Shown here piece after piece: positions 9,104 to 35,984 of a stretch of 64,000 bases of DNA (positions are counted from its first letter, which is position 1; each line of letters starts with the position of its first letter). The translations under genes and the position numbers were made by a program. The stretch comes from Gemmobacter megaterium. GTDB lineage: Bacteria > Pseudomonadota > Alphaproteobacteria > Rhodobacterales > Rhodobacteraceae. Location of the stretch: positions 1 to 64,000 of the forward strand of contig NZ_FTOT01000006.1 of assembly GCF_900156815.1 (NCBI RefSeq), read 5' to 3'. The notes under the pieces were generated by a model. It was not told the DNA's origin. It saw only the letters and a list, made by a program, of their open reading frames with translations, and made no database searches.

Positions 9104-9799
9104 TTAGATGGATCGTTTCCAGATGGCAGTGTCCCCCATACCTTCCACAAACGCGGCGTGAGCCGTTGCCTCTGCGTCTGTCAGGCGCGACCCAAGCGGC
9201 ACCGGACGCGGGCGGGGACGCCAGTCGGTATCCGTCTGCGACAGATCTTTCTTGCGATCATTGATCGGAGCCAGAACAAGGTCAGGCTGACGACCGCCGA
9301 TGAGCTCCAGATAGACCTCTGCAAGAATCTCGCTATCGAGCAAGGCCCCGTGCTTTTCACGGGCAGAGTTATCCACACCGAAACGTCGACAAAGCGCATC
9401 GAGCGAGGCCGGAGATCCTGGAAATTTACGCCGCGCCATGGCCAGGGTATCGACCACGCGATCCCACTGGAGATGCGTCAGACCGATGCGACCAAGTTCA
9501 AAGTTGAGAAACTTGATGTCGAACGCCGCATTGTGGATGATCAGCCGGGCATCGCCAACAAAGTCGAGAAACGCCTCCCCGATGTTGCGAAACACCGGAT
9601 GGTTGCGCAGGAACTCTTCCGATAGCCCATGAACGGCGAAAGCTTCGGTCGGCATGTCGCGTTCAGGGTTGATATATTGGTGATAGGTTCGCCCGGTCGG
9701 CATGTGGTTGAACAACTCCACCGCACCAATCTCGACGATACGGTGTCCCTCTGACGGTTCGAAACCCGTCGTCTCGGTATCAAGGACGATTTCACGCAT
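9104..9799 (-). CDS. dnaQ: DNA polymerase III epsilon subunit (3'-5' proofreading exonuclease)
   Basis: This 231-residue DEDDh exonuclease is the proofreading subunit of the replicative polymerase core. Asp7 and Glu9 in LDTETTGF form ExoI, HNAAFDIKFL forms ExoII, and HGALLDSEI carries the ExoIII His and Asp. The C-terminal part is the expected short segment that binds the alpha subunit. It is the last gene of the maf-aroE-coaE-dnaQ unit and overlaps coaE by 8 bases. Confidence 0.95.
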   Translation of the reverse strand: MREIVLDTETTGFEPSEGHRIVEIGAVELFNHMPTGRTYHQYINPERDMPTEAFAVHGLSEEFLRNHPVFRNIGEAFLDFVGDARLIIHNAAFDIKFLNFELGRIGLTHLQWDRVVDTLAMARRKFPGSPASLDALCRRFGVDNSAREKHGALLDSEILAEVYLELIGGRQPDLVLAPINDRKKDLSQTDTDWRPRPRPVPLGSRLTDAEATAHAAFVEGMGDTAIWKRSI

Positions 9800-10388: not shown

Positions 10389-11230
10389 GATGCAAGAACC
10401 GCTGCGCGGGTTTCTGAATCGACCGTCGGCCGTGTACCAAACCAGCGTTCAAAGCCGGGAACAGCCTGATGCAGCAGCATCCCCAGACCATCTACTGTGG
10501 TGCAACCTGCCTCCCGCGCCGCACGCAGGAAGGGGGTTTCCAGCGGGTTATAGACAATATCAGTCACAAGAGCATGAGGGTTGAGCGCATCAAGCGAAAT
10601 GCGGAACTCGGATTTGCCGACCATGCCAAGTGACGTCGTATTCACGACAGTCATGGCATCGTCGAGCATACCACCGCCTTGGGTCCAATCCACCACCTGC
10701 ACCCGTGCGCCGAAATCGGCACGCAGACTGTCGGCCCGTGGACGGGTACGGTTGGCGATCCGCACCTCCGGCACTCCGGCATCAAGAAGCGCGGACACCA
10801 CAGCACGTGCCGCACCACCAGCGCCGAATACCGCCGCAGGACCAGCCGAGGGCAACCAGTGCGGCGCCTCTTGCTTGAGATTGTTCAAAAAGCCGATACC
10901 GTCCGTGTTGTCGGCGTGAAGCTTGCCATCCTTGCGAAAGATCAACGTGTTCGCAGCGCCGATAAGGGCAGCCCGGTCCGTCACGATATCGGCCAGGCCG
11001 ATCATCGCCTCTTTGTGCGGAATGGTGACGTTGCAACCGACAAACCCAAGCTTGGGAAGCATCTGCAAGGCTGTGGCAAGATCAGCCGAGCTGACCTCCA
11101 TCGGGATGTAGTGCCCGACAATGCCATAGCGGCGCAACCAGTACCCATGCAGCGCGGGTGAACGAGAATGCGCAATAGGTGATCCGATGACACCCGCCAG
11201 CGGAATGCGGTCCAGGGCAGCGACCGTCAT
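10385..11230 (-). CDS. aroE: Shikimate dehydrogenase (NADP+)
   Basis: AroE reduces 3-dehydroshikimate to shikimate in aromatic amino-acid synthesis. The 281-residue product has the substrate motif [11 protein letters not shown], the catalytic lysine in [10 protein letters not shown], the NTDGIGFL motif and the nucleotide-binding [11 protein letters not shown]. It starts inside the maf stop codon (ATGA overlap) and overlaps coaE by 4 bases. Confidence 0.95.
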
Positions 11231-11823
11231 GCCGGGATTATCCCTCGCTGCCCGAGATACCCCAGCAACGCCACCAGCGGTAGGCCGAGGACGGTGAAGT
11301 AATCGCCTTCGATCTGCGAAAACAGGCGGACACCTTCGGATTCAAGCTTGTAGCCGCCAACGCTGTCAAGCACCGCGCCTGAGTTTCGGATGATATAGCT
11401 GTCCAGATACTCTTGCGAAAAGTCTCGCATGGTCAAACGCACCTCCCCCACATGGCGCCATACGGGGCCACCAGCTTGGTATACCACGACCGCCGAAAGA
11501 AGTTTGTGGGTACGGCCCCGAAGAGCCGTCAACTGTGCCCGTACTGCATCAGGGGTTTCCGGCTTTGATAGCACTGTCCCACCAAGATCCAGCACCTGAT
11601 CGCAACCGATCACAACCGATTCCGGGAACCGCGAAGCAAGCTTGGCGGCCTTCATCTCTGCCAGCATGTCGGCCTGGTCGCGGGGGCTGGCGCCCTCCGC
11701 CTGCAATGAGGCGCGCACCGCCTCCTCATCTATATGAGCTGGATGACATACAACCTCCAGCCCGGCATCGCGCAACAGCGCAGCGCGTATGGGAGAAGCG
11801 GAAGCAAGGACAAGCGAGGACAT
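11227..11823 (-). CDS. maf: Maf-family nucleoside triphosphate pyrophosphatase
   Basis: Maf proteins hydrolyse non-canonical or pyrimidine nucleoside triphosphates to monophosphates. The 198-residue product starts with the family signature [20 protein letters not shown] and has the catalytic region [12 protein letters not shown], with the conserved Asp. It is the first gene of the maf-aroE-coaE-dnaQ operon and its start codon borders the putative origin. The upstream DUF299/ppsR gene usual in this neighbourhood is absent. Confidence 0.93.
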
Positions 11824-11832
11824 GGACGACTC

Positions 11833-11841
11833 TGTGGATAT
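11833..11841 (-). promoter_or_regulatory. DnaA box (8 of 9)
   Basis: TGTGGATAT matches the reverse DnaA box TGTGGATAA with one mismatch at the last base. It lies 10 bases upstream of the maf start codon, at the left edge of the putative origin. Confidence 0.45.
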
Positions 11842-11966
11842 TCGCGGATTGTTCCGGTGTCAGAGTTTGGGACAGTCGGCCCGCGCCGACAAGATGGGAA
11901 AAATACCGCCGCTTCCGGCACCTGCTATGCCCAACAACCCACAGGTGCGCAAGTTGTCACATCCCT

Positions 11967-11975
11967 TGGGGATAA
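11967..11975 (-). promoter_or_regulatory. DnaA box (8 of 9)
   Basis: TGGGGATAA matches the reverse DnaA box TGTGGATAA with one mismatch. It lies 28 bases from the perfect box at 12003-12011, in the opposite orientation. Confidence 0.4.
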
Positions 11976-12002
11976 CTTGCCCGACAGCGCATGTCCCTGA
12001 TT

Positions 12003-12011
12003 TTATCCACA
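12003..12011 (+). promoter_or_regulatory. DnaA box (perfect)
   Basis: TTATCCACA matches the consensus DnaA box at all nine positions. It is the strongest single piece of sequence evidence for an origin in this gap. Confidence 0.6.
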
Positions 12012-12215
12012 GGGCGAGATCACCGGAGATCACATCAAGCCTATGAAAAACATAGGATAAATACTAAGTGGCGCTGAAACACATATTTCGTCAACAAGAT
12101 ATGCACACAGGCGCTGGATGGGGATTAATAGGCGGGCATCGCGTGATTTCCAGTTTTCCACTGCCCCTACTATCATCTACATCCTATCTTAAGACTCTAT
12201 ATTTAAGAGGATAGA

Positions 12216-12668
12216 ATGACTGACCTTCTCGCCATCGCCTATCCTTGGACCAAGGCGATGCATGTCGTTTCTGTGATCTCCTGGATGGCCGGGCTATTCT
12301 ACCTGCCACGCCTGTACGTTTATCACGCTGAACAGGTACAGGCAGGGTTGGTCCAGGCCGAAGACCTGTTCCGTACGATGGAACGCCGGCTGCTGCGGGC
12401 AATCATGAACCCAGCTTTGGTCGCAACCTGGATCTTTGGTCTGTTGCTGGTGGCAACGCCAGGTATCGTTGACTGGTCTATGGTCTGGCCTTGGGCCAAA
12501 GCAGGCGCGGTCCTTGCCATGACCTGGTTTCACATGTGGCTTGCTATTCGCCGCAAGGAGTTCGAGGCGGGGCAGAACACAAGATCCGGTCGAACCTATC
12601 GGCTGATGAACGAAGTTCCAACCTTGCTGATGCTGATCATTGTCTTTGCCGTCATCGTGAAGTTCTGA
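12216..12668 (+). CDS. hemJ: Protoporphyrinogen IX oxidase HemJ, membrane protein
   Basis: HemJ oxidises protoporphyrinogen IX to protoporphyrin IX in haem synthesis and replaces HemG/HemY in most alphaproteobacteria. The 150-residue protein has four predicted membrane helices. Conserved features include the early His in KAMHVVSVISWMAGLFYLPRLYVYH, the helix-2 region RRLLRAIMNPA and WFHMWLAIRRKEF. AGAGGAT precedes the ATG. The hemJ-rho linkage is conserved in the group; hemE, often upstream, is missing here, so hemJ directly borders the putative origin. Confidence 0.9.
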   Translation: MTDLLAIAYPWTKAMHVVSVISWMAGLFYLPRLYVYHAEQVQAGLVQAEDLFRTMERRLLRAIMNPALVATWIFGLLLVATPGIVDWSMVWPWAKAGAVLAMTWFHMWLAIRRKEFEAGQNTRSGRTYRLMNEVPTLLMLIIVFAVIVKF

Positions 12669-12793
12669 AAACATTGACTCACCCTGCCTCCCGGTGTAGC
12701 GGGGTGGCTGGAGGCCGTCCGGCCAAACCGTTTCCCGAATGATACCCGATGTGCTGCCCCATGGGCGGCGCCCGTTTGCGTTGAGGGCCTGCC

Positions 12794-14062
12794 ATGACCG
12801 AGCAGTTGAAACTTTCAGATCTTAAGGCCAAGACACCCGCCGATCTTCTGGCGATGGCAGAAGAGTGGGAGATCGAGAACGCCTCGTCCATGCGCAAGGG
12901 CGAGATGATGTTCCAGATCCTCAAGGAACATGCCGAAGAAGGTTTCGAGATCGGTGGCGATGGTGTTCTGGAAGTGCTTCAGGACGGTTTCGGGTTCCTG
13001 CGCAGCCCAGAAGCCAACTATCTGCCGGGACCGGACGACATTTACGTCTCTCCGGACATGATACGTCAATGGTCGCTTCGGACCGGGGATTCCGTTGAAG
13101 GGGTGATCCAGGCGCCTCGTGAGAACGAACGCTATTTCAGTCTTACCAAGGTGACGCGGATCAACTTTGACGATCCCGAAAAAGCCCGCCACAAGGTTCA
13201 CTTTGACAACCTGACCCCGCTTTATCCCGACGAGCGATTGAAGATGGAAATCGAGGATCCGACGATCAAGGATCGCTCGGCTCGGATCATTGATCTGGTG
13301 GCACCGATCGGCAAAGGGCAACGGGCTCTTATCGTGGCGCCGCCGCGTACGGGTAAGACGGTGCTGTTGCAGAACATCGCGCGGTCGATCGAGGTGAACC
13401 ATCCAGAGTGTTACCTTATTGTCCTTCTGATCGACGAACGCCCCGAGGAAGTGACCGACATGCAGCGGTCCGTGAAGGGTGAGGTCATCTCGTCAACCTT
13501 TGACGAACCGGCAACCCGTCACGTTGCCGTGGCAGAGATGGTGATCGAAAAGGCTAAGCGCCTGGTCGAGCATAAGCGAGATGTTGTGATCCTTCTGGAT
13601 TCCATCACAAGACTTGGTAGAGCATTCAACACCGTCGTTCCGTCTTCGGGCAAGGTTCTGACGGGTGGTGTAGACGCAAATGCCCTTCAACGGCCCAAGA
13701 GGTTCTTTGGCGCGGCGCGGAATATCGAAGAAGGTGGGTCTCTGACGATCATCGCGACTGCGCTGATTGATACAGGAAGCCGGATGGACGAAGTCATCTT
13801 CGAAGAGTTCAAAGGAACCGGCAACAGCGAGATTGTTCTGGACCGCAAGGTCGCAGACAAGCGAATCTTCCCGGCGATGGACATCCTGAAGTCTGGAACC
13901 AGGAAGGAAGAGCTTCTGGTTGCAAAGAACGATCTCCAGAAAACCTATGTGCTGCGACGTATCCTGAACCCGATGGGGACGACAGATGCGATCGAGTTCC
14001 TAATCTCCAAGTTGAAGCAGACCAAGACAAACTCGGAATTTTTCGACTCCATGAACAGCTGA
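12794..14062 (+). CDS. rho: Transcription termination factor Rho
   Basis: Rho is a hexameric RNA-dependent ATPase that terminates transcription. The 422-residue protein has the N-terminal Rho domain, the RNA-binding cold-shock-like domain ([18 protein letters not shown] around residues 62-79), the Walker [10 protein letters not shown] at about 182-190, the [13 protein letters not shown] segment and the [15 protein letters not shown] region with the Q/R-loops. The length is typical. It is followed by mnmE after 10 bases, a conserved arrangement next to the alphaproteobacterial origin. Confidence 0.97.
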
Positions 14063-14072
14063 GGTCTGCAAA

Positions 14073-15359
14073 ATGGACACGATCTATGCCCTGGCATCGG
14101 CGCGGGGCAAGGCCGGGGTTGCGGTTGTCCGGATTTCCGGACCGCAAGCCATGTGTTCGTTGTTGCCGGTTGTTGGATCCTTCGGTCCGCCGAGAGTTGC
14201 CGCGCTACGTGCCCTGAAGGACGGTGACGCGATCCTGGATCACGCTCTGGTGATCTGCTTTGAGCAGGATCGGAGCTTCACCGGAGAGACGGTTGTTGAG
14301 CTTCACTTGCACGGTAGTCAGGCCATAGTGCAGGCAGTGTTGGCGTTGCTTGGTGGTCTGTCTGGATTTCGACTTGCCGAAGCTGGAGAGTTCACGCGCA
14401 GGGCGCTGGAGAATGGTCGTCTGGATCTGGCGCAAGTCGAAGGTCTCGCGGATCTGATAGAGTCCGAGACAGAGATGCAGCGGCGCCAGGCGATGCGGAT
14501 ATTTTCCGGCGAGTTGGGCAAGAGATCCGAGATCTGGCGGCAAAAACTGCTGCGCGCAGCCGCGTTGACCGAAGCCGTCCTGGATTTTGCAGACGAAGAA
14601 GTTCCGACCGATGTACGGCCAGAAGTCCTGGCGCTTGTTGGCGATGTACTGGATGATCTGCGGGCGGAGCAAGATGGCTATGCTGTAGCGGAACGCATTC
14701 GGGACGGTTTCGAGGTTGCCATTCTCGGTGCCCCCAATGCCGGGAAGTCGACACTGCTGAACCGGCTTGCCGGCCGCCAAGCTGCGATCACATCCGAGTA
14801 CGCTGGCACGACCCGTGATGTCATCGAGGTTCGTATGGACCTGCGGGGACTTCCTGTTACGATTCTCGATACGGCGGGTCTGCGAGAAACGGATGATCCT
14901 GTTGAAGCGATAGGCGTTGCGCGTGCGATAGAGCGGGCGAATACCGCCGATTTGCGGGTTTTCCTGTTGGGTGGAGAGGGTGACTCTCTGCCAGTTCATC
15001 CCTTGGTTGACGACATCGTGGTGCAGGGCAAAGCAGATACGATAATGGCTGACGGTCTGTCGGTATCTGGCCGGACAGGGCAGGGTGTTGATGTTCTGGT
15101 TGATCGGATAGCGTCTGTACTGGAACAGCGTGCAGCATCTTCCGCGACCATCACCCGGTCACGGCATCGGCAAGTGGTTGATCAGTCGGTAGAGGCTTTG
15201 GAATCGGCGCGAGAGGTGTTATTGAACGGCCACGAAGGCGATGAAATCGTCGCAGATGCGCTGCGGCTGGCCATCGGCTTCATGGATGATCTGGTCGGGC
15301 GGATTGGCGTGGAAGATCTCTTGGGGGAGATCTTTGCTTCGTTCTGTATCGGGAAGTAG
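14073..15359 (+). CDS. mnmE: tRNA modification GTPase MnmE
   Basis: MnmE acts with MnmG to add (carboxymethyl)aminomethyl groups at the 5-position of wobble U34. The 428-residue product has the N-terminal tetrahydrofolate-binding domain ([22 protein letters not shown]), the helical domain, a G domain with GAPNAGKST and DTAGLR motifs, and the diagnostic C-terminal CIGK (residues 425-428). It is slightly shorter than E. coli MnmE. It is followed by mnmG and starts the mnmE-mnmG-rsmG-parA-parB run. Confidence 0.95.
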
Positions 15360-15363
15360 GGAT

Positions 15364-15379
15364 TGTTTCACATGAAACA
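15364..15379. other. parS site 1, containing the mnmG start codon
   Basis: TGTTTCACATGAAACA differs from the consensus parS TGTTTCACGTGAAACA at one central base. The mnmG ATG (15372) is part of the palindrome, so ParB would bind over the translation start. It lies about 3.4 kb from the putative origin and 3.3 kb upstream of parB. It is identical, in reverse orientation, to the site at 20768. Confidence 0.85.
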
Positions 15380-17246
15380 CTATGACGTCATTGTCGTCGG
15401 CGGTGGCCATGCCGGAACAGAAGCTGCGGATGCAGCGGCTCGTCTTGGCGTGCGCGTTGCGCTTGTAACCATGCGCGCAGATCGCATTGGCGTCATGTCC
15501 TGCAACCCTGCTATTGGCGGATTGGGCAAGGGTCATCTGGTCCGAGAGATAGATGCGCTGGATGGATTGATGGCACGTGCCGGAGACCGTGCGGGCATTC
15601 AATATCGTCTGTTGAATCGCAGGAAGGGACCGGCGGTGCAAGGCCCGCGAATCCAGGCGGATCGGGAGTTGTATCGTACAGCCATCCAGGAATTTCTGCG
15701 CAACCGTGTAGGTCTGGATATCCTAGAGGCAGAAGTCTCGGGATTTATCCTTTCCGGCGAAGCGATTGAGGGAGTCATCCTTCATGATGGCAGCAGACTG
15801 GCGGCCGGGGCGGTCGTACTTACCGCCGGAACCTTTCTGAATGGCGTGATGCATGTCGGCCCGAGGCAAGAACAAGGCGGCAGGGTCGGGGATTCTGCGT
15901 CGAACAGCTTGGCGGATATGCTTCGCGAGATTGCCACAGGACGAGGGCGCCTGAAGACAGGAACACCGCCGCGGCTTGACGGACGTACGATCAACTGGGA
16001 TGTGGTCGAGCGCCAGCATGGCGATGACTGTCCAGTCATGCTGTCCTTCCTCAACAGATTGCCACTCGTTCCGCAGATTTCTTGCGGGATTACCCATACA
16101 AACGCCGCCACGCATGAGATTGTCCGCGAGAATCTCGACAAGTCGGCAATGTACGGTGGGTTCATAGAAGGCGTCGGACCAAGATACTGCCCTTCGATTG
16201 AGGATAAGATTGTTCGGTTCGCGGACAAGGATAGTCATCAGGTGTTTCTTGAGCCGGAAGGCTTGAACGACACAACTGTGTATCCCAATGGCATTTCGAC
16301 ATCTCTGCCTGCCGACATTCAAGAGCGATATGTCCGATCCATCAGGGGTCTGGAGCAGGTCGAGATACTTCAGCCAGGATATGCGATTGAGTATGACTAT
16401 TTCGATCCTTGCGGGCTGACGCGTACATTGGCGGTTCGAAGCATGAAGGGCCTGTTCTTTGCAGGCCAGATCAATGGGACAACGGGGTATGAGGAAGCCG
16501 CAGCGCAAGGCTTGCTGGCAGGTTTGAATGCGGCCCGTCACGCGCGCGGTGCGGAAGGCGTGGTCCTTCAGCGCACCGATAGCTACATCGGGGTGATGAT
16601 TGACGATCTGGTTACCCGCGGCGTGACCGAGCCATACCGGATGTTCACCTCCCGAGCAGAATACCGCCTTAGCTTGCGCGTGGACAATGCTGATCAGAGA
16701 TTGACCCCGTTGGGGATCGCCTTGGGTTGTGTTGGGCCTGACCGGACTTTGTCTTTCAACAAAAAACTTGAGGATCTGAACGCTGCCCGGAACAGCCTCG
16801 ATAGCGGCAAGTTCAGTCCCAACGAGCTTGCAGCAGTGGGCATCAATGCAAACAGAGATGGCGTTCGTCGTTCGGCGCTTGATGTTCTGACATTTCCGGA
16901 TGTGACATTGGCTCAGATTGCCGCACTTGTCCCGGCTGTTGAGGATATTGCGCCAGAGATTATTGAACAGCTCCAGAAGGAAACGCTCTATTCGGCCTAC
17001 CAGGATCGTCAGCAAGCTCAGCTTGAGGCGGTTCGCCGCGACGAGAATTGGACCATTCCGGTGGATTTTGACTTCTCGGCTGTCGTAGGGCTCTCTAACG
17101 AGCTTCGGCAGAAGCTGAATCGAAGCCGACCCGAGACCCTGGCCCAAGCTTCCCGCATCGAAGGGATGACTCCGGCGGGATTGGCGTTGATTCATCTTCG
17201 ACTGAAGGCAGCAAGCGTTGCACCGCCGCGGGTAGCGATGAGATGA
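15372..17246 (+). CDS. mnmG: tRNA uridine-5-carboxymethylaminomethyl modification enzyme MnmG (GidA)
   Basis: MnmG is the FAD partner of MnmE in modifying tRNA wobble uridine. The 624-residue protein has the FAD-binding [16 protein letters not shown] near the N-terminus, the [22 protein letters not shown] block and the [11 protein letters not shown] segment. The start is the ATG at 15372 inside the parS palindrome; an in-frame TTG at 15363 is possible but less likely. A purine-rich AGGGA precedes it. The stop overlaps the rsmG start (ATGA). Confidence 0.96.
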
Positions 17247-17881
17247 TCCGGCAGCATCTTTCCGAGATGTCGGGGATCGAGCTTTCTGAGGTCACGGTTT
17301 CCAAGCTCGAAGCGTTTCGGGACTTGGTCCTCAAATGGAATCCTCGGATCAATCTCGTGTCGCGCGCATCCTTGGCTGACCTTTGGACGAGGCATATCGC
17401 TGATTCCGCTCAACTTTATCGCTATGCCTGTAATGTCTCCGGAACGTGGGCAGATCTTGGATCCGGAGGCGGCTTTCCTGGTGTCGTGCTTGCGGTTCTA
17501 TCCACGCAGGCGCACCCGGCTCGCCAGTACAGATTTGTCGAATCTGATCAGCGCAAGGCTGTTTTCCTGCGCGAGGCTGTTCGGGTCACGGAGTGCCGAG
17601 CCAGCGTTGTCTGTGATCGGATCGAACAGGTAGACCCGATGAATGCGGATGTCGTAACTGCACGCGCCTTGGCATCTTTGCCCGATCTTCTTGGTTTGGT
17701 TGCGCGGCATTTGCGTTCTGATGGTCTGGCTATCCTGCCGAAGGGCGCCAACTACAAACTCGAACTTGATGCTGCGCGTGCGAACTGGGCTTTCGATGCG
17801 CAGGTTCATCCTAGTATCACGGACCCTGATGGTCACATCCTCCAGGTCGAGGGTCTGAAAGAGCGATTGGAAGATCGGTAG
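17243..17881 (+). CDS. rsmG: 16S rRNA (guanine527-N7)-methyltransferase RsmG (GidB)
   Basis: RsmG methylates N7 of G527 of 16S rRNA using SAM; its loss gives low-level streptomycin resistance in several bacteria. The 212-residue protein has the SAM-binding motif [18 protein letters not shown] and the conserved [10 protein letters not shown] segment near the N-terminus. It overlaps the mnmG stop codon by 4 bases and is followed by parA after 4 bases, so ribosome biogenesis and segregation genes form one unit. Confidence 0.94.
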
Positions 17882-17885
17882 TGTT

Positions 17886-18683
17886 ATGAGAATCATCGCC
17901 ATAGCGAACCAAAAAGGCGGGGTCGGCAAGACCACTACCACCATAAATCTCGGTGCGGCGCTGGCTGAGCATGACAAGAAAGTCTTGCTTATTGACCTGG
18001 ATCCGCAAGGGAATACCTCCACTGGTTTGGGTATATCACCAAGCTCGCGTAGTGCTACGAGCTATGATCTCTTGCTTGGGGACGTGGTGCCTGAACCCCA
18101 GAAAGTTGGCGTTGGCGACCGGGGGCTTTGGATCATTCCGGCCAACACCGACCTCGCTTCAGCAGACATTGAGCTTCATGCGCATGAGAAGCGCAGTTTT
18201 CTTCTGCACGACGCCTTGAGAGGGCAGATGCTGCAGGATGACAGGTTTGACTATGTCTTGATTGACTGTCCGCCGTCACTCAATCTGCTTACAGTGAATG
18301 CAATGGTCGCAGCTCACGCGGTTCTGGTTCCGCTGCAGGCAGAGTTCTTTGCTCTGGAAGGGCTATCTCAACTTATGATGACCATCCGGGAGGTTCGAAT
18401 GAAGGCGAATCCGGGGCTGCGGATTGAAGGGATAGTGCTGACGATGGCCGATATGCGCAATCGACTGTCTCAGCAGGTAGAGGCTGACGTGCGCGAGACC
18501 TTGGGCGATCTAGTTTTTCAGAACGTCATTCCACGGAATGTTCGGATCAGCGAAGCGCCATCTTTCGCCCGCACCATTCTGGACTATGATCCGTCGTCCA
18601 AGGGCAGCCAGGCTTATCGAGCACTTGCTGTCGAAGTGCTGGAACGGCATTACAACGCTGGACGCAAAGGGGCAGGGGCATGA
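17886..18683 (+). CDS. parA: Chromosome-partitioning ATPase ParA
   Basis: ParA is the Walker-type ATPase that moves ParB-parS complexes to separate newly replicated origins. The 265-residue protein has the deviant Walker A KGGVGKTT at residues 10-17, the switch motif VLLIDLDPQGN and the Walker B VLIDCPPSLN. The length matches chromosomal Soj/ParA. It is coupled to parB by an ATGA overlap. Confidence 0.96.
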   Translation: MRIIAIANQKGGVGKTTTTINLGAALAEHDKKVLLIDLDPQGNTSTGLGISPSSRSATSYDLLLGDVVPEPQKVGVGDRGLWIIPANTDLASADIELHAHEKRSFLLHDALRGQMLQDDRFDYVLIDCPPSLNLLTVNAMVAAHAVLVPLQAEFFALEGLSQLMMTIREVRMKANPGLRIEGIVLTMADMRNRLSQQVEADVRETLGDLVFQNVIPRNVRISEAPSFARTILDYDPSSKGSQAYRALAVEVLERHYNAGRKGAGA

Positions 18684-19582
18684 ACGAACGCAAGATGGAA
18701 CGGCGCGGGCTGGGGCGTGGCCTTTCCGCTCTTATGGCGGATGTCGGTATGGTGGAATCAACCGTCGCAAAGGGTAGCGTCGGCGTCCGGGATGTACCAA
18801 TAGAGCATGTTCAACCCAATCCCGATCAACCCCGCCGTCGATTTGATGAAGAGGCCTTGGCCGATCTTGCGAACTCCATCCGTGAAAAGGGTGTCCTGCA
18901 GCCCTTGCTGGTACGGGAGGTTGGCGACAGTTTCGAGATTGTGGCAGGTGAACGGCGTTGGCGCGCGGCACAGATCGCGCAGCTACATGTAGTTCCGGTC
19001 ATCGTGCGCGACTATGACGATACCGAAGTCTTGGAAGTTGCGATCATTGAGAACATTCAGCGGGCAGACCTTAGCCCGGTGGAGGAAGCGGCTGCATATC
19101 GTCAGTTGATTGAACGATTTGGGCATACCCAGGAGAAAGTCGCGGAAACTCTTGGGAAGAGCCGAAGCTATATTGCAAACTCGCTGCGCCTGCTGGCTTT
19201 GCCCAGTGATGTGATCGGCATGATTGAAACCGGAGCATTGTCCTCGGGTCATGCGCGGGCGCTTGTCGCATCGGACAAGGCGTCCGCATTGGCGCGCAAG
19301 ATTGTCGATCAGGGAATGACTGTCCGCGAAGTTGAACGCCTTGTCAGAGAGGACAAGACCGGGAAAGGAACGACGCGAGGGTATCGTTCGCGTCAGGGGC
19401 AGAAAGACGACGACACCTTGGCGCTTGAGGCAGATGTCTCCAGCAATCTGGGTATGAGCGTCAAGATCGCCCATGAGGCGCATACTGGTGGTGGCACTCT
19501 GTCTGTGCGTTACACGACGCTGGAGCAACTTGACCTGCTGTGCCGGGTGCTTTCGTCAGTCGGTTCCGACACGAATTCCTAG
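18680..19582 (+). CDS. parB: Chromosome-partitioning protein ParB
   Basis: ParB is a CTP-dependent clamp that loads at parS and spreads on flanking DNA. The 300-residue protein has the N-terminal ParA-interacting region (RRGLGRGLSALM), the CTP-binding GERRWRAA at residues 90-97, a helix-turn-helix (TQEKVAETLGKSRSYIANSL) and a C-terminal dimerisation domain. Three parS-like sites occur in this window, all within 18.3 kb of the putative origin. Its TAG stop overlaps the hemW stop (shared CTAG), so the two genes converge without a gap. Confidence 0.96.
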   Translation: MNERKMERRGLGRGLSALMADVGMVESTVAKGSVGVRDVPIEHVQPNPDQPRRRFDEEALADLANSIREKGVLQPLLVREVGDSFEIVAGERRWRAAQIAQLHVVPVIVRDYDDTEVLEVAIIENIQRADLSPVEEAAAYRQLIERFGHTQEKVAETLGKSRSYIANSLRLLALPSDVIGMIETGALSSGHARALVASDKASALARKIVDQGMTVREVERLVREDKTGKGTTRGYRSRQGQKDDDTLALEADVSSNLGMSVKIAHEAHTGGGTLSVRYTTLEQLDLLCRVLSSVGSDTNS

Positions 19583-20730
19583 TGTTCGGCGATATCCGAT
19601 AGCAATCTTGCTATGACAGAGTTCAACAAGATCCGGCCTTTGGGAGTCGCCTGTACTGCATGGTCGCTGCGTGCGAGATAGCCTTCTTGCGTCATCTCGA
19701 CGAGAGACGTCCAGGTGTTCAGGTTGACCCCCATGCGGGCAAAGGTACTGTTGGGGATTCCGTCAACAAGCCGCAGGCCCATCAGGATTGTTTCGGCTGT
19801 CTGCTCGTCTTGTGAGAGCTCGACAGTTGGCAGGTCTCCTGACCCCTGTGTTTCGACAGCTTCCAACCACGCGCGCGGGTCTCTTATTGCCTCTGTCGCG
19901 ACTCGTTGATGGCCAAGCATGACCCGGCCGTGTGCGCCAGGACCAACACCGGCGTAGATGCCACTGTTCCAATAGATGAGATTGTGTCGGCATTGCTCGT
20001 CGATGCGCGCATGGTTCGACACTTCATAAGCGGGCAGGCCGGCCGCTTCGCAGATGTCTTGGGTAAGCTCGAACATCTCCGCGGCGCTATCCTCGTCCGG
20101 CAGACCTTTGAGCTGCCCTGCGCTGTGACGGCGGGAAAAGACGGTGCCATCCTCGATCGTCAGTTGATAGAGCGAAAGATGCCCTGTTCCAAGGGAGATT
20201 GCTTCGTTCAACTCGGCAGACCAGTCCGGGATTGTCTGATGTTGGCGAGCGTATATGAGATCCAGATTCACCCTCTGAAAGTTGGCCTGGGCGATTTCGA
20301 CTGCCCGCAAAGCCTCGCGTCGGCCATGTAGCCGTCCCAACCTTGCAAGGTGATCGTCGTTCAGGGACTGGACTCCGAGAGACACTCGGTTGACACCAGC
20401 CAGCGCGTAGCTTTTGAATCGCCCGCTTTCGACCGAGCCGGGATTCGCCTCCATGGATATCTCGATGTCGTTGGCTGTCCTCCAGGCATCTGTCGCTGAT
20501 CTGACAAGGCTGTCGACGATCCTCGGGTCCATCAGAGACGGGGTACCGCCTCCGATGAATATGGTGCTCAGAATATGGTCGGGGCATGCTTCTGCGATAC
20601 GGGAGATCTCGTGTTGATACGCTGAGATCCACCGCTCTGGGTCGATGGCCGTTGCGACGTGGCTGTTGAAGTCACAGTATGGGCACTTGGACTGGCAGTA
20701 AGGCCAATGAACATACAGTCCGAATTTCAT
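19579..20730 (-). CDS. hemW: Radical SAM haem chaperone HemW
   Basis: HemW-type proteins are radical-SAM-family haem chaperones, formerly annotated as coproporphyrinogen III oxidase HemN. The 383-residue protein starts MKFGLYVHWPYCQSKCPYC, giving the CxxxCxxC cluster motif at Cys12, Cys16 and Cys19, followed by FIGGGTPSLM. It lacks the extra N-terminal region of true HemN. A downstream parS lies 38 bases upstream of its start codon, between it and rdgB. It converges with parB. Confidence 0.92.
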   Translation of the reverse strand: MKFGLYVHWPYCQSKCPYCDFNSHVATAIDPERWISAYQHEISRIAEACPDHILSTIFIGGGTPSLMDPRIVDSLVRSATDAWRTANDIEISMEANPGSVESGRFKSYALAGVNRVSLGVQSLNDDHLARLGRLHGRREALRAVEIAQANFQRVNLDLIYARQHQTIPDWSAELNEAISLGTGHLSLYQLTIEDGTVFSRRHSAGQLKGLPDEDSAAEMFELTQDICEAAGLPAYEVSNHARIDEQCRHNLIYWNSGIYAGVGPGAHGRVMLGHQRVATEAIRDPRAWLEAVETQGSGDLPTVELSQDEQTAETILMGLRLVDGIPNSTFARMGVNLNTWTSLVEMTQEGYLARSDHAVQATPKGRILLNSVIARLLSDIAEH

Positions 20731-20767
20731 CGCAGGCTCCCAGAATCGTGATTAACTGCGAACGCTC

Positions 20768-20783
20768 TGTTTCATGTGAAACA
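20768..20783. other. parS site 2, spanning the rdgB stop codon
   Basis: TGTTTCATGTGAAACA is the exact reverse complement of the parS at 15364-15379. The rdgB stop codon (20772-20774 on the minus strand) lies within it. It is about 8.8 kb from the putative origin, between rdgB and hemW. Confidence 0.85.
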
Positions 20784-21377
20784 AGCAAGGAGCTTCTGGA
20801 ACGCCAGCCCCCGGTGACTCAGGCGATTTTTCTGCCAGCGATCCATTTCCCCGAAAGTCTGCGTGTGACCATCCGGCTGGAAGATTGGGTCATAGCCATG
20901 TCCGTGCGCTCCGCGACCAGGGTTCACGATCCGCCCTTCGATCCGCCCTTCGAATACCTCGTCGTGACCATCCGGCCAGGCCAACACCAGTGTGCACACA
21001 AAGGCAGCTCGCCATGGCTCGGGCGCGCCACATTGGTCGAGTTCGTCGTGCACCCGACGCATCGCCAGTTGAAAGTCTCTGCCAGCGGGCGTCTCCGCCC
21101 AATCTGCGGTATAGACGCCTGGCGCGCCATGCAGAGCGTCGACACAAAGCCCGGAGTCATCCGCCAGCGCGACGTGTCCCGTGGCAGCGGCGGCGGCATG
21201 GGCTTTGATCCGGGCATTGCCGACGAAGGTTGTTTCGGTTTCCTCCGGTTCAGGAAGATCGAAGTCACCCATTGCAAAGAGCTTGATGTTCCGGTTCGCA
21301 AGCAGTTCGGAAATTTCTTCCAGCTTTCCGGAATTATGAGTCGCGATCAGAAGCGCCTCCTGCGTAAACTTCCTCAT
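20772..21377 (-). CDS. rdgB: XTP/dITP diphosphatase RdgB
   Basis: RdgB (Ham1 family) hydrolyses ITP, dITP and XTP to monophosphates, keeping deaminated purines out of DNA. The 201-residue protein has the signature [18 protein letters not shown] at the N-terminus, the [10 protein letters not shown] catalytic segment and [12 protein letters not shown] near the C-terminus. Its start overlaps the rph stop (ATGA), so the two form an operon. The last codons lie in a parS site, which constrains the C-terminus (CFT). Confidence 0.95.
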
Positions 21378-22087
21378 GAGATTGCAGTCTTTTGAGCGGA
21401 GACCAATTGCTTGATACCGCTTTCTGCGTGGTCCAGAAGCTGCAACATTTCGGATCTCGAGAATGCAGCGCCTTCTGCGGACATCTGTACTTCAACAAGA
21501 GCGCCAGAGCCGGTCAGCACAAAGTTACCGTCTGTGCCGGCTGCGCTATCCTCTACATATTCGAGATCCAGCACCGGCTGACCGCCATATATGCCACAGG
21601 ATACGGCGGCGATATGGTCGGTGATCGGGTCGGAGAGGATCAGTCTGCTCGCCAGCAGCTTGTTGGCAGCCAGACGCAGAGCAACCCATCCACCCGTGAT
21701 GGCGGCGCAGCGGGTACCGCCGTCGGCCTGGATCACATCACAATCCACGACGATCTGGCGCTCTCCAAGTGCAGCGCGATCCACGCCTGCGCGCAAGGCG
21801 CGGCCGATAAGACGCTGGATCTCAATCGTGCGCCCTTGTTGCTTTCCCGAGGCAGCTTCGCGGCGATTGCGGGTGTTCGTCGCCCGCGGCAGCATTCCGT
21901 ATTCTGCAGTGACCCAGCCAAGTCCGGTCCCCTTCAGAAACGGTGGCGGGCGGTCCTCGATGCTGGCGGTGCACAGGACATGCGTATCTCCGATGCGGAT
22001 CAGGCAAGATCCCTCCGCATGTTTGACAACATTCGTCTCGATCGAGATTGTGCGCATTTCGTTCAATGCCCGTCCGGAAGGCCGCAT
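21374..22087 (-). CDS. rph: Ribonuclease PH
   Basis: RNase PH is a phosphorolytic 3'-5' exoribonuclease that trims tRNA 3' ends. The 237-residue product has the N-terminal [18 protein letters not shown], the [18 protein letters not shown] segment and the substrate-binding [18 protein letters not shown] region. The length is typical. It is divergent from hrcA, an arrangement conserved in alphaproteobacteria, and coupled to rdgB. Confidence 0.96.
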
Positions 22088-22175
22088 CCCGTATCCTTTC
22101 TGTTCTAGGTTTATTGGCAGTTACCCTTGTGCCGCAGGGCTGGCAAGCCCAAGGTTCTGTTCATGCTGGCAACCG

Positions 22176-22204
22176 TTGACGAGCGGCAGAGGGGCACCTA
22201 ATTT
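22176..22204 (+). promoter_or_regulatory. Sigma70-type promoter of hrcA-grpE
   Basis: TTGACG (22176-22181) and TAATTT (22199-22204) are separated by 17 bases, and the -10 element lies 23 bases before the hrcA ATG. No CIRCE inverted repeat is present in this gap, so hrcA does not appear to be self-regulated here. Confidence 0.5.
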
Positions 22205-22227
22205 GGAGCGTCGTCAGAGTAGCACCA

Positions 22228-23298
22228 ATGACCAACTCACCAAGCCCTCTCCATGATCTGAACACGCGTTCGCGCGAGGTGTTCCGGCGGGTTGTGGAAA
22301 GCTATCTGCAATCCGGTGATCCTGTCGGATCCAGGACACTGACCCGCGCCATGTCAGAGAAGTTGTCAGCAGCAACCATCCGAAATGTGATGCAGGATCT
22401 GGAGTTTCTGGGGCTTCTAGATTCGCCGCATGTCTCGGCGGGCCGGATCCCGACGCAACTTGGCTTGCGTATGTTTGTTGATGGCTTGCTGGAAGTTGAG
22501 TCCATCGACTCGAGCGACCTGGAGCGCATTCATGCCAGCGTCGATCCTGCGGACCGGGATGTTGCGCATATGCTGGATCAGGTCAGCGGGACCTTGTCGC
22601 GGATAACCCGTGGCGCCAGCCTGGTTCTCACCCCCAAGCATGAAGCCGCGATCCGCCATATCGAGTTTGTCAGCCTTGCGCCAGACCGCGCACTGGTGGT
22701 TCTGGTGTTTTCGGATGGCCACGTCGAGAACCGGATCTTCACCCCCCCTGCCGGGCAGACGCCATCGTCCATGCGAGAGGCGGCCAATTTTCTGAGTGCC
22801 TTTGCAGAAGGGCGCACCCTGACCGATCTTCGCGCCCAATTTGCACGAGAGCTTCAGGACCGCAGGCAGGAAATAGATGTTCTGGCGCGCGATCTGGTCG
22901 AAAGCGGGCTGGCTGTGTGGGAGAATGCGGGCCAGGTGTCCGAGCGACTGATCGTGCGCGGTCGGGCGAATTTGTTGCCGGAAAGCGATGAAGCTGCCGA
23001 GCTCGACCGTATCCGCAGCCTGTTCGACGATCTGGAACGCAAGCGAGACATCGCGGAATTTCTGGATCTTGCCGAAGAAGGGCAGGGCGTGCGCATTTTC
23101 ATTGGGTCAGAGAACAAGGTTTTCTCACTTTCCGGTTCCTCTCTCGTTGTCTCTCCCTATATGAACGCCGAGCGGAAGATCATCGGTGCCATCGGGGTGA
23201 TCGGTCCGACCCGGCTGAACTATGGCCGGATCGTTCCGATTGTCGATTACACCGCCCAGCTCATCGGGAAGATGATTTCTGATCGAACGAAAGGATAA
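22228..23298 (+). CDS. hrcA: Heat-inducible transcription repressor HrcA
   Basis: HrcA represses groESL and related heat-shock genes by binding CIRCE and is released when GroEL becomes limiting. The 356-residue protein has an N-terminal winged helix (SREVFRRVVESYLQSGDPVGSRT, then LSAATIRNVMQDLE) and a C-terminal GAF-like domain ending with the conserved GAIGVIGPTRLNYGRIVPIVDYTA. It is followed by grpE after 5 bases, the usual pairing. Confidence 0.96.
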   Translation: MTNSPSPLHDLNTRSREVFRRVVESYLQSGDPVGSRTLTRAMSEKLSAATIRNVMQDLEFLGLLDSPHVSAGRIPTQLGLRMFVDGLLEVESIDSSDLERIHASVDPADRDVAHMLDQVSGTLSRITRGASLVLTPKHEAAIRHIEFVSLAPDRALVVLVFSDGHVENRIFTPPAGQTPSSMREAANFLSAFAEGRTLTDLRAQFARELQDRRQEIDVLARDLVESGLAVWENAGQVSERLIVRGRANLLPESDEAAELDRIRSLFDDLERKRDIAEFLDLAEEGQGVRIFIGSENKVFSLSGSSLVVSPYMNAERKIIGAIGVIGPTRLNYGRIVPIVDYTAQLIGKMISDRTKG

Positions 23299-23303
23299 GA
23301 GGC

Positions 23304-23855
23304 ATGCAGGACGAAAAGCTCAACCCTTCGGAACAAGGTCCGACAACCACCGCAGAGGGGGCGGAGCCGGAGTTCGACTACATCGACGCCGAAGAGCTGG
23401 ACAGGCTCAAGGCCGAACGTGACGAGTTCCGCGACAAGTTCATGAGGGCGCTGGCCGACGCTGAAAACTCCCGCAAGCGTGCGGATCGTGACCGGCGCGA
23501 GGCAGAGCAATATGGCGGATCGCGTCTGGCTCGGGATCTGCTGCCCGTGCATGACAACATGCGGCGTGCCATCGAGGCGATCAGCGACGAGCAGCGCGAA
23601 CAGAATGCGGCGCTGATCGAAGGCGTCGAGCTGACACTGCGCGAGTTGCACAATGTGTTCAGCAAGCACGGTGTCACCTTGATCTCACCGCAGGTTGGCG
23701 ATCTCTTCGATCCGCAAATTCATCAGGCCATGTTCGAGGCCCCGGTGCCCGGCACGGTCGCCGGAACCATCCTCCAGTGCATGGCAGACGGATTCATGCT
23801 GCATGATCGTCTGCTGCGACCGGCGCAGGTTGGTGTATCGTCCAACAATGGCTGA
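23304..23855 (+). CDS. grpE: Nucleotide exchange factor GrpE
   Basis: GrpE releases ADP from DnaK. The 183-residue protein has an acidic N-terminus, a long charged coiled-coil (about residues 30-90, with ADAENSRKRADRDRREA), and the C-terminal beta domain with the conserved PQVGDLFDPQIHQAMFE and DRLLRPAQVGVS segments. It is cotranscribed with hrcA and converges with mutS after 32 bases. dnaKJ are not in the window. Confidence 0.95.
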   Translation: MQDEKLNPSEQGPTTTAEGAEPEFDYIDAEELDRLKAERDEFRDKFMRALADAENSRKRADRDRREAEQYGGSRLARDLLPVHDNMRRAIEAISDEQREQNAALIEGVELTLRELHNVFSKHGVTLISPQVGDLFDPQIHQAMFEAPVPGTVAGTILQCMADGFMLHDRLLRPAQVGVSSNNG

Positions 23856-23887
23856 CGGTGGCGGTTGACGCGCAATCGCCAGGTGGA

Positions 23888-26566
23888 TCATCTTGAAGAG
23901 GGTGGGGCCGGAGTCTGATCCGGCTTTGCCATCAAACCGCGAAGCTCATACAGAAGTTCCAGCGCCTGCCGGGGTGATAGGTCGTCTACATTGATCTTGT
24001 GCAGGCGATCTTCGACTTGCGAAGGGGGGGCCGCCGCCGTGCGCGGCGCGGCTGCGGAGGCGGCCGAGAACAGCGGCAGATCGTCGATCAGCGCCATGGT
24101 CCGCGTCCTCCCGCCTTCCCGCTCGCCCTTTTCCAGAGCCTCAAGCACCACCCGTGCCCGATCCACCACAGACGACGGCAACCCTGCCAGGCGCGCAACC
24201 TGCACACCGTACGACCGATCAGCGGCCCCCTTGCGGACCTCGTGAAGGAAGATGACCTCTCCTTGCCATTCCTTGACGCTTACCGTCGCATTCTCGACGG
24301 CCTTCAGACGGCCGGCTAGGGTGGTCATTTCGTGATAATGCGTTGCAAACAACGCGCGGCAGCGGTTCGTGTCATGCAGGTGTTCCAGAACAGCCCATGC
24401 AATCGAAAGCCCGTCATAGGTTGCGGTTCCGCGACCAATCTCATCCAGAATGACCAGCGCCCGCGCATCTGCCTGATTTAGAATGCCAGCGGTCTCGACC
24501 ATTTCGACCATGAATGTCGAGCGCCCGCGTGCAAGATCGTCCGACGCGCCGACTCTGCTGAACAACTGGCTGACAAGGCCGATCCGCACCGAGTCGGCGG
24601 GCACGAAACTGCCGGCCTGTGCGAGCACGGCAATCAGCGCGTTTTGTCGCAGGAATGTGGATTTACCGGCCATATTCGGCCCGGTCAGCAACCATATTGC
24701 CGGAGACTCGCCCGTGGACAAAAGGCAATCGTTGGCGACAAATGGCTCCCCGGCACGGCGCAAGGCGCGCTCCACAACAGGGTGCCGGCCGCCGCTGATC
24801 TCGAACGCATGGCTGTCGTCCACAATCGGCTCGCACCAGTGCTCTGCTATTGCCAGATCGGCCAGGGCACAGGCGACGTCGATCTCTGCCAGTGCGCGTG
24901 AGGTTTGGGCGATTGCGCCAGAACTGGCAAGCACCGTGGATTGCAGCGACTGGAAATGGCCGCGCTCCAGTTGCAGGGCGTGGCTCGCCGCATTCAGGAT
25001 ACGGGTTTCCAGTGCAGACAGTGCGACAGTCGTGAAACGCACCTGATTGGCAGTGGTTTGACGGTGAATGTATCGCTCCGACAGCGGCGGGGTCATCATC
25101 CGCTCTGCATGTCTGTCCGTCACTTCGATAAAATAGCCCAACACATTGTTGTGCTTGATCTTCAGGGTTTGTATTCCGGTTTCTACCGCATAGTCGGCCT
25201 GCATCCGCGCAATCACGCCGCGCCCTTCGTCCCTGAGTGCGCGGGTCTCGTCGAGTTCCGAGTCGAAGCCCTTGGCAACAAAACCTCCGTCACGAAGCAG
25301 CAACGGGGGATCACTCACAACGGCAGAGCGCAAGAGCGAGACAAGCGCGTCGTGTCCGGTCAGCGACCTGGCCGCCTCGCCAAGCAAAACCGGCGCGTCC
25401 TGCCAGCCAGCCAGTATGTCCGCAATCTCGACGGCATGATACAGCCCGTCCCTGATGGCCGCCAGATCGCGCGGCCCGCCCCTGTCGAGGGCAAGCCTGG
25501 ACTGTGCCCGTTCCATATCCGGTACCGCCTTCAACAACGTCCGAAGCTGGTCGCGAAGTCGCGCGTTTTCGGCAAGGCTGCGCACCGCGATCAGGCGCTG
25601 CCGGATCAGATTCAAGTCTCTGGACGGCCCCGAGAGCCGCCTTTCCAGCAGCCTTGCCCCTGCTGCGGTCACAGTGCGATCTACCGTGGCCAACAGCGAT
25701 CCGTCGCGGCCACCATTGCTGCCATGAGTAATCTCCAGGCTTCTCCGGGTTGCCGCGTCTATCTGCATGAGCCCGCCGGCAAGTTCCCTGACCGGAGGTC
25801 GAACCAGTGGGAGGCGGCCACGTTGAGTCAGATCCAGATAGTCGACAAGCGCGCCCATGGCAGACAATTCGGCCCGATCAAAGGCGCCGAAACCGTCCAG
25901 CGTGGACACCGACCACAAGCCGCACAGTCTCCGCTCGGCGCCGGTACTGTCAAAGCCCGATCGTGGCCGCAAGGTGTCGACGGCGCCGCTCTCCGTCACA
26001 ACAGGACAGAGGGCGGCCTGCGTCTCGGACAGCAGCACCTCGCGCGGCGCAAGCCGGGCGAGTTCCGGTCCCAGTCTGACAGCAGGGCAGGGCATCACCC
26101 GCATCTCGCCGGTCGATATGTCGACCCAGGCCAACGCGCCTGCGTCTCGGACTTCGGAAAAGGCCGCCAGATAGTTGTGTCGCCGCGCTTCCAGCAAGGA
26201 ATCTTCGGTCAGGGTTCCCGGCGTGACCAGTCGCACCACATCGCGTCGCACGACCGATTTCGACCCGCGCTTTTTCGCCTCGGCCGGGTCTTCCATCTGT
26301 TCGGCGATTGCGACGCGAAATCCCTTGCGGATCAGCGCCAGAAGATAGCCCTCGGCGGCATGAACCGGCACACCGCACATCGGGATGTCGGCGCCCAGAT
26401 GTTGGCCGCGTTTCGTCAATGCGATGTCCAGGGCGGCAGATGCCTGAACCGCATCATCAAAGAACATCTCGTAGAAGTCGCCCATACGGTAGAACAGGAT
26501 TGCGTCCGCGTGCTGGCCCTTGATCTCCAGATATTGGGCCATCATCGGCGTAACGGTATCGGTCAT
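23888..26566 (-). CDS. mutS: DNA mismatch repair protein MutS
   Basis: MutS recognises mismatches and small loops and recruits MutL. The 892-residue protein has the mismatch-binding motif (FYRMGDFYEMF, in which Phe and Glu contact the mispair), connector, core and clamp domains, and the C-terminal ATPase with LLTGPNMAGKSTFLRQ and VILDEIGRGTATYDG. I chose the start at 26566 (MTDTVTPMMAQYLEIK); the open frame continues far upstream only because it is antisense to maeB. The C-terminal helix-turn-helix region (LSPRQALELLYELRGL) is present. Confidence 0.96.
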   Translation of the reverse strand: MTDTVTPMMAQYLEIKGQHADAILFYRMGDFYEMFFDDAVQASAALDIALTKRGQHLGADIPMCGVPVHAAEGYLLALIRKGFRVAIAEQMEDPAEAKKRGSKSVVRRDVVRLVTPGTLTEDSLLEARRHNYLAAFSEVRDAGALAWVDISTGEMRVMPCPAVRLGPELARLAPREVLLSETQAALCPVVTESGAVDTLRPRSGFDSTGAERRLCGLWSVSTLDGFGAFDRAELSAMGALVDYLDLTQRGRLPLVRPPVRELAGGLMQIDAATRRSLEITHGSNGGRDGSLLATVDRTVTAAGARLLERRLSGPSRDLNLIRQRLIAVRSLAENARLRDQLRTLLKAVPDMERAQSRLALDRGGPRDLAAIRDGLYHAVEIADILAGWQDAPVLLGEAARSLTGHDALVSLLRSAVVSDPPLLLRDGGFVAKGFDSELDETRALRDEGRGVIARMQADYAVETGIQTLKIKHNNVLGYFIEVTDRHAERMMTPPLSERYIHRQTTANQVRFTTVALSALETRILNAASHALQLERGHFQSLQSTVLASSGAIAQTSRALAEIDVACALADLAIAEHWCEPIVDDSHAFEISGGRHPVVERALRRAGEPFVANDCLLSTGESPAIWLLTGPNMAGKSTFLRQNALIAVLAQAGSFVPADSVRIGLVSQLFSRVGASDDLARGRSTFMVEMVETAGILNQADARALVILDEIGRGTATYDGLSIAWAVLEHLHDTNRCRALFATHYHEMTTLAGRLKAVENATVSVKEWQGEVIFLHEVRKGAADRSYGVQVARLAGLPSSVVDRARVVLEALEKGEREGGRTRTMALIDDLPLFSAASAAAPRTAAAPPSQVEDRLHKINVDDLSPRQALELLYELRGLMAKPDQTPAPPSSR

Positions 26567-26680
26567 GCGGTCCCCCTGTCGTGGCGCAGAACCTAGCGCG
26601 TACGCCACGAAGGGAAAAGGCCCGCAAATCCATTGTTCCGCGCGGACCGGAACGGTATTAGGGCGCAAAGGGAGGCCCGA

Positions 26681-28936: not shown

Positions 28937-28945
28937 ATGCCATGT

Positions 28946-28974
28946 GCCCGCCAGCGCCGATGCGCCTGGCGGGC
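28946..28974. terminator. Hairpin between convergent maeB and hydrolase genes
   Basis: GCCCGCCAG (28946-28954) pairs with CTGGCGGGC (28966-28974), forming a 9-bp stem with an 11-base loop in the 52-base gap between the two stop codons. It could serve both strands, although no T-tract follows. Confidence 0.45.
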
Positions 28975-28988
28975 CCTGGCAGACTGGC

Positions 28989-30113
28989 CTAGTTGGCCAG
29001 TTCTTCTCCAATGAGGGCCACCGGGGACAGGATGATCCGGGTTGCCCCCTGAACAGTCAATATTGCGCCGGGCAACAGGCCTATGCGGCTTGCCGCGTCG
29101 CGTCCCAGCGCGTCGTCAACATCACCGATGCCATTGAGCAGCTGAATCAGGCTGGGTGACGTGCCCGCAGTGAAATGGCCATCGCCCGTCGAGAATGCCC
29201 CGACTTCCAGTAATGTGACCTCGAGCCCCGCCAGTGCCTGCACATCGCCCAGATTGCCCAGGCGGGATGTCTCTCCGGCCAGTCTTGCAGATAGGCCGAG
29301 CGCCCTGTCGCGGGAGGATGTGAAGATCACGAATGGCTGTGGCAATACGCCGACCGCCTGCGCCTGTGCCCGAAACACATCGACGTCTATGTCAGGCGAG
29401 ATCAGAATGACCCCACCGACACGAGGCAGCACAGATCTATCGCGGCCGATTGCCAGTTGGCGCAGTGCCTCCATTGTCAGCGCACTACCCAGGGAATGCG
29501 CGACAAGGAGGATTTGATCGGCCCCTGCCGCCGACACCTCCTGTAACAGCCGCTCCAGCCCATCCCTGGCAAACAGGGCGGAGTCACGGTCGTAGGCATA
29601 GCCCAGCGGCGTGCCACGAGACGGCCAGCTATACAGCACAGGCACGCCCGGCAGTCCCATGTCATGCTGCAACTGCGCAAGGCGATACAGGCTCTCGGCG
29701 AAGGTATTATTGAAGCCATGAATGTACACGACGACCTCGCGCTTGCCGGGCGGGGTGTGGCGCAACTCTCTGGCCAAATCCGTGCGAAAGGCCGCGTCGG
29801 TCTCATAGCTCTTTTGGTCAACCGTCAGCATATGCTTCGATGGGTCTGCCGGGCCATGGCGCGGCGGCCAGGGCAGGGAGCCAAGCTGGCGATCCGGGGG
29901 GATAGAGACATCATAGCGCGCGAACCGGGTCATATAGCTGCGGCCGCGTGAATAGGGATTCCCCGCGTCATCCCCTGGCAGGCGCGTGCTGCCGATGAAA
30001 ATCCGCTCTACAGCGCCGACCGCTGCGGCTTCCGGGGCAAGGGTGATCAAACCTCGCGGCGCGCAGGCAGCCAGGGCAACAATCGAGAGGGCTGCTAGGA
30101 GGAGGATCCGCAT
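28989..30113 (-). CDS. Alpha/beta hydrolase lipoprotein (DUF900 family)
   Basis: This 374-residue protein starts with a lipoprotein signal peptide (MRILLLAALSIVALAACAPRG) whose lipobox is LAAC. It then has an alpha/beta-hydrolase fold of the DUF900 type: VVVYIHGFNNTFAES for the oxyanion loop and LLVAHSLGSALTMEAL with the nucleophile Ser. A lipid-anchored hydrolase at the cell envelope is the safest description; the substrate is unknown. I chose the start at 30113 because it gives a clean signal peptide after GGAGGAT; the open frame extends 12 codons further. It converges with maeB. Confidence 0.85.
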   Translation of the reverse strand: MRILLLAALSIVALAACAPRGLITLAPEAAAVGAVERIFIGSTRLPGDDAGNPYSRGRSYMTRFARYDVSIPPDRQLGSLPWPPRHGPADPSKHMLTVDQKSYETDAAFRTDLARELRHTPPGKREVVVYIHGFNNTFAESLYRLAQLQHDMGLPGVPVLYSWPSRGTPLGYAYDRDSALFARDGLERLLQEVSAAGADQILLVAHSLGSALTMEALRQLAIGRDRSVLPRVGGVILISPDIDVDVFRAQAQAVGVLPQPFVIFTSSRDRALGLSARLAGETSRLGNLGDVQALAGLEVTLLEVGAFSTGDGHFTAGTSPSLIQLLNGIGDVDDALGRDAASRIGLLPGAILTVQGATRIILSPVALIGEELAN

Positions 30114-30197
30114 GTCGCAATTGATCCTCAAGTTCCGCCGCTTCGTCAATCAGGCTTGAGGCCGGATCTCTGCCGCCGCCTCATGCCGGTTCAGAAG

Positions 30198-30213
30198 TGT
30201 TTCCCGTGAAACA
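30198..30213. other. parS-like site 3
   Basis: TGTTTCCCGTGAAACA differs from consensus parS TGTTTCACGTGAAACA at one central base, and CCCGTG breaks the perfect dyad. It lies in the 105-base gap between rmuC and the hydrolase lipoprotein, about 18.2 kb from the putative origin. Unlike the other two sites it is entirely intergenic. Confidence 0.7.
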
Positions 30214-30218
30214 TCGGC

Positions 30219-35902: not shown

Positions 35903-35984
35903 CGGCAGCCTCCGCAGGTTCACTGCGCAAGCTATAGGTCCGCGACGCGCGGTCAAGTCAGCCGACAGGAATGTGATGCCCGCC

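Follow-up and report, generated by a model that had tools for sequence, protein, structure and literature searches.

Known origins and the maf/hemJ gap

For the Rhodobacteraceae, a survey of 101 closed genomes located oriC with Ori-Finder; the criteria were that the site has DnaA boxes, lies near the GC-disparity minimum and near parAB, and coincides with a local GC minimum (PMC6699656). Elsewhere in the Alphaproteobacteria, Cori of Caulobacter crescentus lies between hemE and COG1806 and carries CtrA and IHF sites; the Rickettsia origin is of the same hemE/COG1806 type (PMC1914354). Strand opening has been described through the basal unwinding system (BUS) of Bacillus subtilis, in which a DnaA box is followed by a short spacer, by trinucleotides with a conserved middle A and by a T- or AT-rich tract. 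This arrangement was predicted in 1755 of 2070 origins (PMC8287927, PMC6669920).

The divergent gap between maf and hemJ analysed here shares with the Rhodobacteraceae origins its DnaA boxes, low GC content and neighbouring parAB genes, and GC skew fits in two of three relatives; maf itself is never named in the main text of the survey (PMC6699656). Like Cori and the Rickettsia origin, it is an alphaproteobacterial gap of about 400 bp that contains DnaA boxes and adjoins a haem-synthesis gene (PMC1914354). It differs from Cori, as outlined in the same report, in being bordered by Maf and UPF0093/HemJ rather than by COG1806 and hemE, in having no full CtrA site, and in an IHF-like site that carries two mismatches. 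Taken together, the sequence features make it very probable that this gap is the chromosomal oriC. It is an ordinary origin of a kind common to its relatives and adds little that is new in type.

Gene neighbourhood and parS sites

The window, that is, the whole stretch of DNA analysed, makes up the initial 64 kb of the 299,855-bp contig C16, in a genome of 4.17 Mb assembled into 45 contigs. The first-pass annotation had proposed a probable chromosomal oriC in a gap of 392 bases between maf and hemJ at 11824-12215, and these coordinates are exact. The flanking genes read away from the gap, as had been stated, and their starts bound it (Table 1). The right-hand ORF belongs to the UPF0093 family, for which HemJ is the usual name. 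To the left of maf, the minus strand carries aroE, coaE and a gene for a dnaQ-like exonuclease, and the plus strand carries secB; rightward of hemJ follow, in order, rho, mnmE, gidA, gidB, parA and parB. Further along the window, the stretch 41786-42216 is one candidate for a gap larger than the 392-bp one, which had been called the largest; empty in an ORF list of at least 100 aa, it holds, read by eye, a 60-codon ORF (41903-42085) whose product presumably resembles a DUF1674 protein.

Table 1. Features of the maf/hemJ gap and its surroundings (window positions)
Feature	Position	Strand	Basis
Very probable oriC, whole gap between maf and hemJ	11824..12215	.	Box clustering, layout in relatives
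maf, left border gene	11227..11823	-	Maf family, PF02545
hemJ (UPF0093), right border gene	12216..12668	+	PF03653
DnaA box, 8 of 9, maf side; most constant box position in relatives	11833..11841	-	Box scan
DnaA box, 8 of 9	11967..11975	-	Box scan, gap alignment
DnaA box, perfect	12003..12011	+	Box scan, gap alignment
AT-richer middle of the gap; 38/80 gaps have their IHF-like site at this place, degenerate in the window (best 2 mismatches)	12033..12063		
Weak DnaA box, 2 mismatches; position recurs in relatives	12099..12107	+	Box scan, alignment
Weak DnaA box, 2 mismatches	12119..12127	-	Box scan, alignment
Weak DnaA box, 2 mismatches, hemJ side, adjoining putative unwinding module	12154..12162	+	Box scan, alignment
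Short C-rich spacer, then DnaA-trio-like trinucleotides, register interrupted	12163..12184	+	Alignment; fails published rule
AT-rich tract, putative site of first strand opening	12185..12211	.	Base composition
parA	17886..18683	+	PF13614
parB	18680..19582	+	PF02195, PF17762, PF23552
parS-like site, 1 mismatch	15365..15378	.	14-mer palindrome scan
parS-like site, 1 mismatch	20769..20782	.	14-mer palindrome scan
parS-like site, 1 mismatch	30199..30212	.	14-mer palindrome scan

Both parAB and parS sites had been noted nearby, and both are present. In the whole genome, palindromes with at most one mismatch to the parS 14-mer occur at three places only, against none for the reversed control, and all three are found 3-18 kb from the gap. 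Closeness to parAB and to parS, by which an oriC may be recognised, is thus observed here. The 5' end of gidA, whose ORF is listed from 15363, overlaps the leftmost parS-like site; an in-frame ATG, a likely start codon, falls within the palindrome, which makes the site partly coding. The middle site overlaps the 3' end of a Ham1-family ORF (20772-21377, minus strand).

DnaA boxes

The gap contains seven DnaA boxes at up to two mismatches, three of them at up to one, and the one perfect and two 8-of-9 boxes reported from the first reading were all recovered. Dinucleotide shuffles of the gap hold on average 0.108 boxes at the stricter threshold and 1.29 at the looser one; none of 2000 shuffles reaches three and none of 500 reaches seven. 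The clustering of boxes above chance that marks bacterial chromosomal origins is therefore present. Across the 299,855-bp contig, the gap is the sole 400-bp stretch with three boxes at up to one mismatch.

The 4.17-Mb genome has five exact boxes, two of them on contig C16 (at 9369 and 12003). Genome-wide, neither exact boxes (5 vs 9 for the reversed control) nor near-boxes (244 vs 329) are enriched, and a looser DnaA pattern performs no better (55 vs 45). In the whole genomes of two relatives, exact boxes number 32 against 18 in the control (G001) and 10 against 16 (G002). No further group of three near-boxes within 400 bp was seen by eye among the 100 of 244 genome places listed, a coverage that leaves a second cluster elsewhere in the genome possible. 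The dnaQ-like gene carries two boxes, one exact and one 8-of-9 (9369-9377 and 9532-9540), within a span of 172 bp at a distance of about 2.3-2.5 kb from the gap.

The inverted repeat noted on first reading is also present. Eleven inverted-repeat pairs were counted in the gap, a number to which no chance control was applied, and the longest (12 nt, 83%; 11964-11975 / 12003-12014) pairs the two central DnaA boxes.

GC skew

Skew was sampled in three relatives (G009, G019 and G040), with twenty 20-kb stretches taken from a contig of 3.56-4.33 Mb in each. The contigs were treated as circles, the orthologous hemJ was set as origin and the terminus was placed opposite. The expected sign was found in 17 of 20 stretches in G009 (0 of 10000 permutations as good) and in 18 of 20 in G019 (3 of 10000). 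The best turning points, 3.46-3.47 Mb in G009 and 1.19-1.20 Mb in G019, are offset from hemJ (3.477 and 1.182 Mb) by less than the sample spacing. In G040, the sign is as expected in just 11 of 20 stretches, 402 of 10000 permutations do equally well, and the best turning point (3.02-3.21 Mb) lies about 310-500 kb from hemJ at 3.522 Mb. A rearrangement in that genome is possible, but the result counts against an origin at the maf/hemJ gap.

On the window's own contig, skew is -0.025 over the left 12 kb and +0.099 over 12216-20000; blocks of about 20 kb are positive in 14 of 15 cases, the remaining block (20001-40000) having -0.024. This record is one-sided: the genome is a draft of 45 contigs, and just 12 kb of sequence separate the gap from a contig end. 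With a skew minimum at the gap, the support looked for on first reading, G009 and G019 agree and the one-sided own contig is consistent; G040 disagrees. At the resolution of the sampling, the gap is indistinguishable from surroundings of tens of kb.

Conservation in relatives and origin assignment

Loci of relatives were collected through HemJ, keeping the best 80 of 200; the closest HemJ among these is that of Gemmobacter nectariphilus (84% identity). A divergent maf/hemJ gap of 389-454 bp occurs in all 79 loci where maf could be seen, L041 being left out of this count since its stretch begins 99 bp before hemJ. Thirty further loci show the same layout in 29 cases, maf not being found in the other; they add little, because the window is among them and at least six others (L089-L092, L094, L095) match, in length, contigs already counted. 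The gap comparisons below use 80 gaps, namely those of 79 relatives and the window's own.

The relatives' gaps have a median identity of 42% to that of the window. All 80 share descent, and clustering at 80% identity thinned them to 74 distinct gaps. The full set contains 39 exact and 242 near DnaA boxes, against 0.2 and 7.1 in shuffles that kept single-base content only (those used below for the unwinding rule, CtrA and IHF kept dinucleotides); with one gap per cluster (n=74), 34 exact and 225 near boxes remain. At least two near-boxes are found in 70 of the 80 gaps, and 2 of the 80 have no box at up to one mismatch. The first 40 bp hold 68 near-boxes over the 80 gaps, all on the minus strand, while those at about 180 bp and at 260-340 bp are mostly on the plus strand. 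The aligned sequences indicate that these gaps diverge fast yet hold DnaA boxes at recurring places.

Such a pattern could in principle arise if the gap were merely a divergent promoter, its boxes serving to regulate maf and hemJ or to titrate DnaA, with the origin located elsewhere. The maf-side boxes, which in many relatives lie about 2-30 bp from the maf start, are compatible with a regulator, the T-rich block on the hemJ side doubles as hemJ leader, and the skew of G040 indicates another place. We nevertheless regard this as very improbable, as the layout, the length and the places of several boxes persist where the rest of the gap varies, skew agrees in two of the three sampled relatives, and the only parS-like sites of the genome adjoin the gap. 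Still less credible is an origin close to the gap but outside it, for example at the box pair at 9369 and 9532: a perfect and an 8-of-9 box do stand within 172 bp there and skew is blind to 2-3 kb, but both sit within the dnaQ-like ORF (9104-9799), and the gap has more boxes as well as the conserved layout.

The assignment of oriC to the gap itself, as first proposed, is supported by the clustering and recurring places of the boxes, by the conserved layout, by its exclusive nearness to the parS-like sites and by skew in two of three relatives. Locating the origin in this draft assembly would also tell in which direction the neighbouring genes are replicated, and the divergent maf/hemJ gap may serve as a simple oriC landmark for the Rhodobacteraceae.

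AT-rich tracts and regulatory sites

The AT-rich tracts described earlier were confirmed. With a GC content of 0.50, the gap lies below every 20-kb block of the contig (0.594-0.662), and its last bases, 12188-12215, are 71% AT, as suits an unwinding element. In the alignment of the gaps, DnaA boxes flank a central AT-richer element on both sides. Of the 80 gaps, 14 contain an exact IHF consensus, compared with 1.6 in shuffles (maximum 4), and 13 of the 14 sites are on the minus strand at gap positions 210-235. At up to one mismatch, a site is present in 38 of 80 gaps (minus strand, positions 195-245; a count without shuffle control), which is a likeness to Cori as outlined in PMC1914354. The gap of the window holds two-mismatch versions only.

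Full CtrA sites (TTAA-N7-TTAA) are absent from the window's gap and slightly enriched in relatives (6 of 80 gaps vs 0.8 in shuffles, maximum 3). Across the 80 gaps, neither CtrA half sites (TTAAC, 44 vs 61 in shuffles) nor GANTC (99 vs 140) are enriched; the window has two GANTC sites.

The putative unwinding side

The hemJ side appears to resemble the basal unwinding system. Read by eye, many relatives carry there, in BUS order, a DnaA box and a short G+C spacer, then CTAC followed by ATC triplets, and lastly a T-rich tract. CYTAC is found within the last 110 bp of 51 gaps out of 80 and an ATCATC-like string in 52, and the 40 bases past the anchor have a mean T of 0.41 and a mean G of 0.08 (77 gaps where the anchor was found). 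A rule simplified from the published one (DnaA box at up to two mismatches, spacer of 0-16, at least three NAN trios) is satisfied on the plus strand by 56 of 80 gaps, against a shuffle mean of 10.6 (maximum 19), and on the minus strand, for which no shuffles were run, by 24 of 80. The module falls within the last 130 bp in 38 of the 80. The 80-gap comparison thereby indicates one unwinding side.

Two differences from the outlined BUS are apparent (PMC8287927, PMC6669920). The repeated triplets are often ATC on the box strand and not CTA (3'-GAT-5' consensus), and the copy in the window is interrupted: its segment 12154-12184 keeps the module order of the relatives, but the rule is failed on either strand. 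Because of this failure, that the duplex opens just before hemJ is something we infer. Among the matches listed, no title treats an unwinding module of Rhodobacteraceae origins; given the 2070-species survey (PMC8287927), absence from print is not claimed.

A broader reading can be offered tentatively, and we consider it rather unlikely. Rhodobacteraceae origins would have a hemJ-side unwinding module, largely in an ATC register running into a T-rich, nearly G-free strand, together with a central IHF-like site. In the Gemmobacter-like lineage of the window, the trio register would have decayed along with the IHF-like site, DnaA perhaps opening the duplex by a looser rule.

Proposed course of initiation

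At the origin proposed here, DnaA-ATP would bind the strong boxes on the maf side and in the centre, possibly assisted by bending of the AT-richer middle, and would be handed on to the weak hemJ-side box (12154-12162). A DnaA filament may then grow rightward on one strand of the trinucleotides (12167-12184), upon which the AT-rich tract just 5' of hemJ would open and helicases could load to start two forks moving outward. Once duplicated, the origins would be moved by ParA/ParB through putative binding of ParB to the parS-like sites 3-18 kb off.

DnaA C-terminal domains occur at two places in this genome. One belongs to a frame of 526 codons on contig C19, and a second lies on contig C33 (G000:C33:22257-22454, locus L002), where the open frame spans 154 codons.
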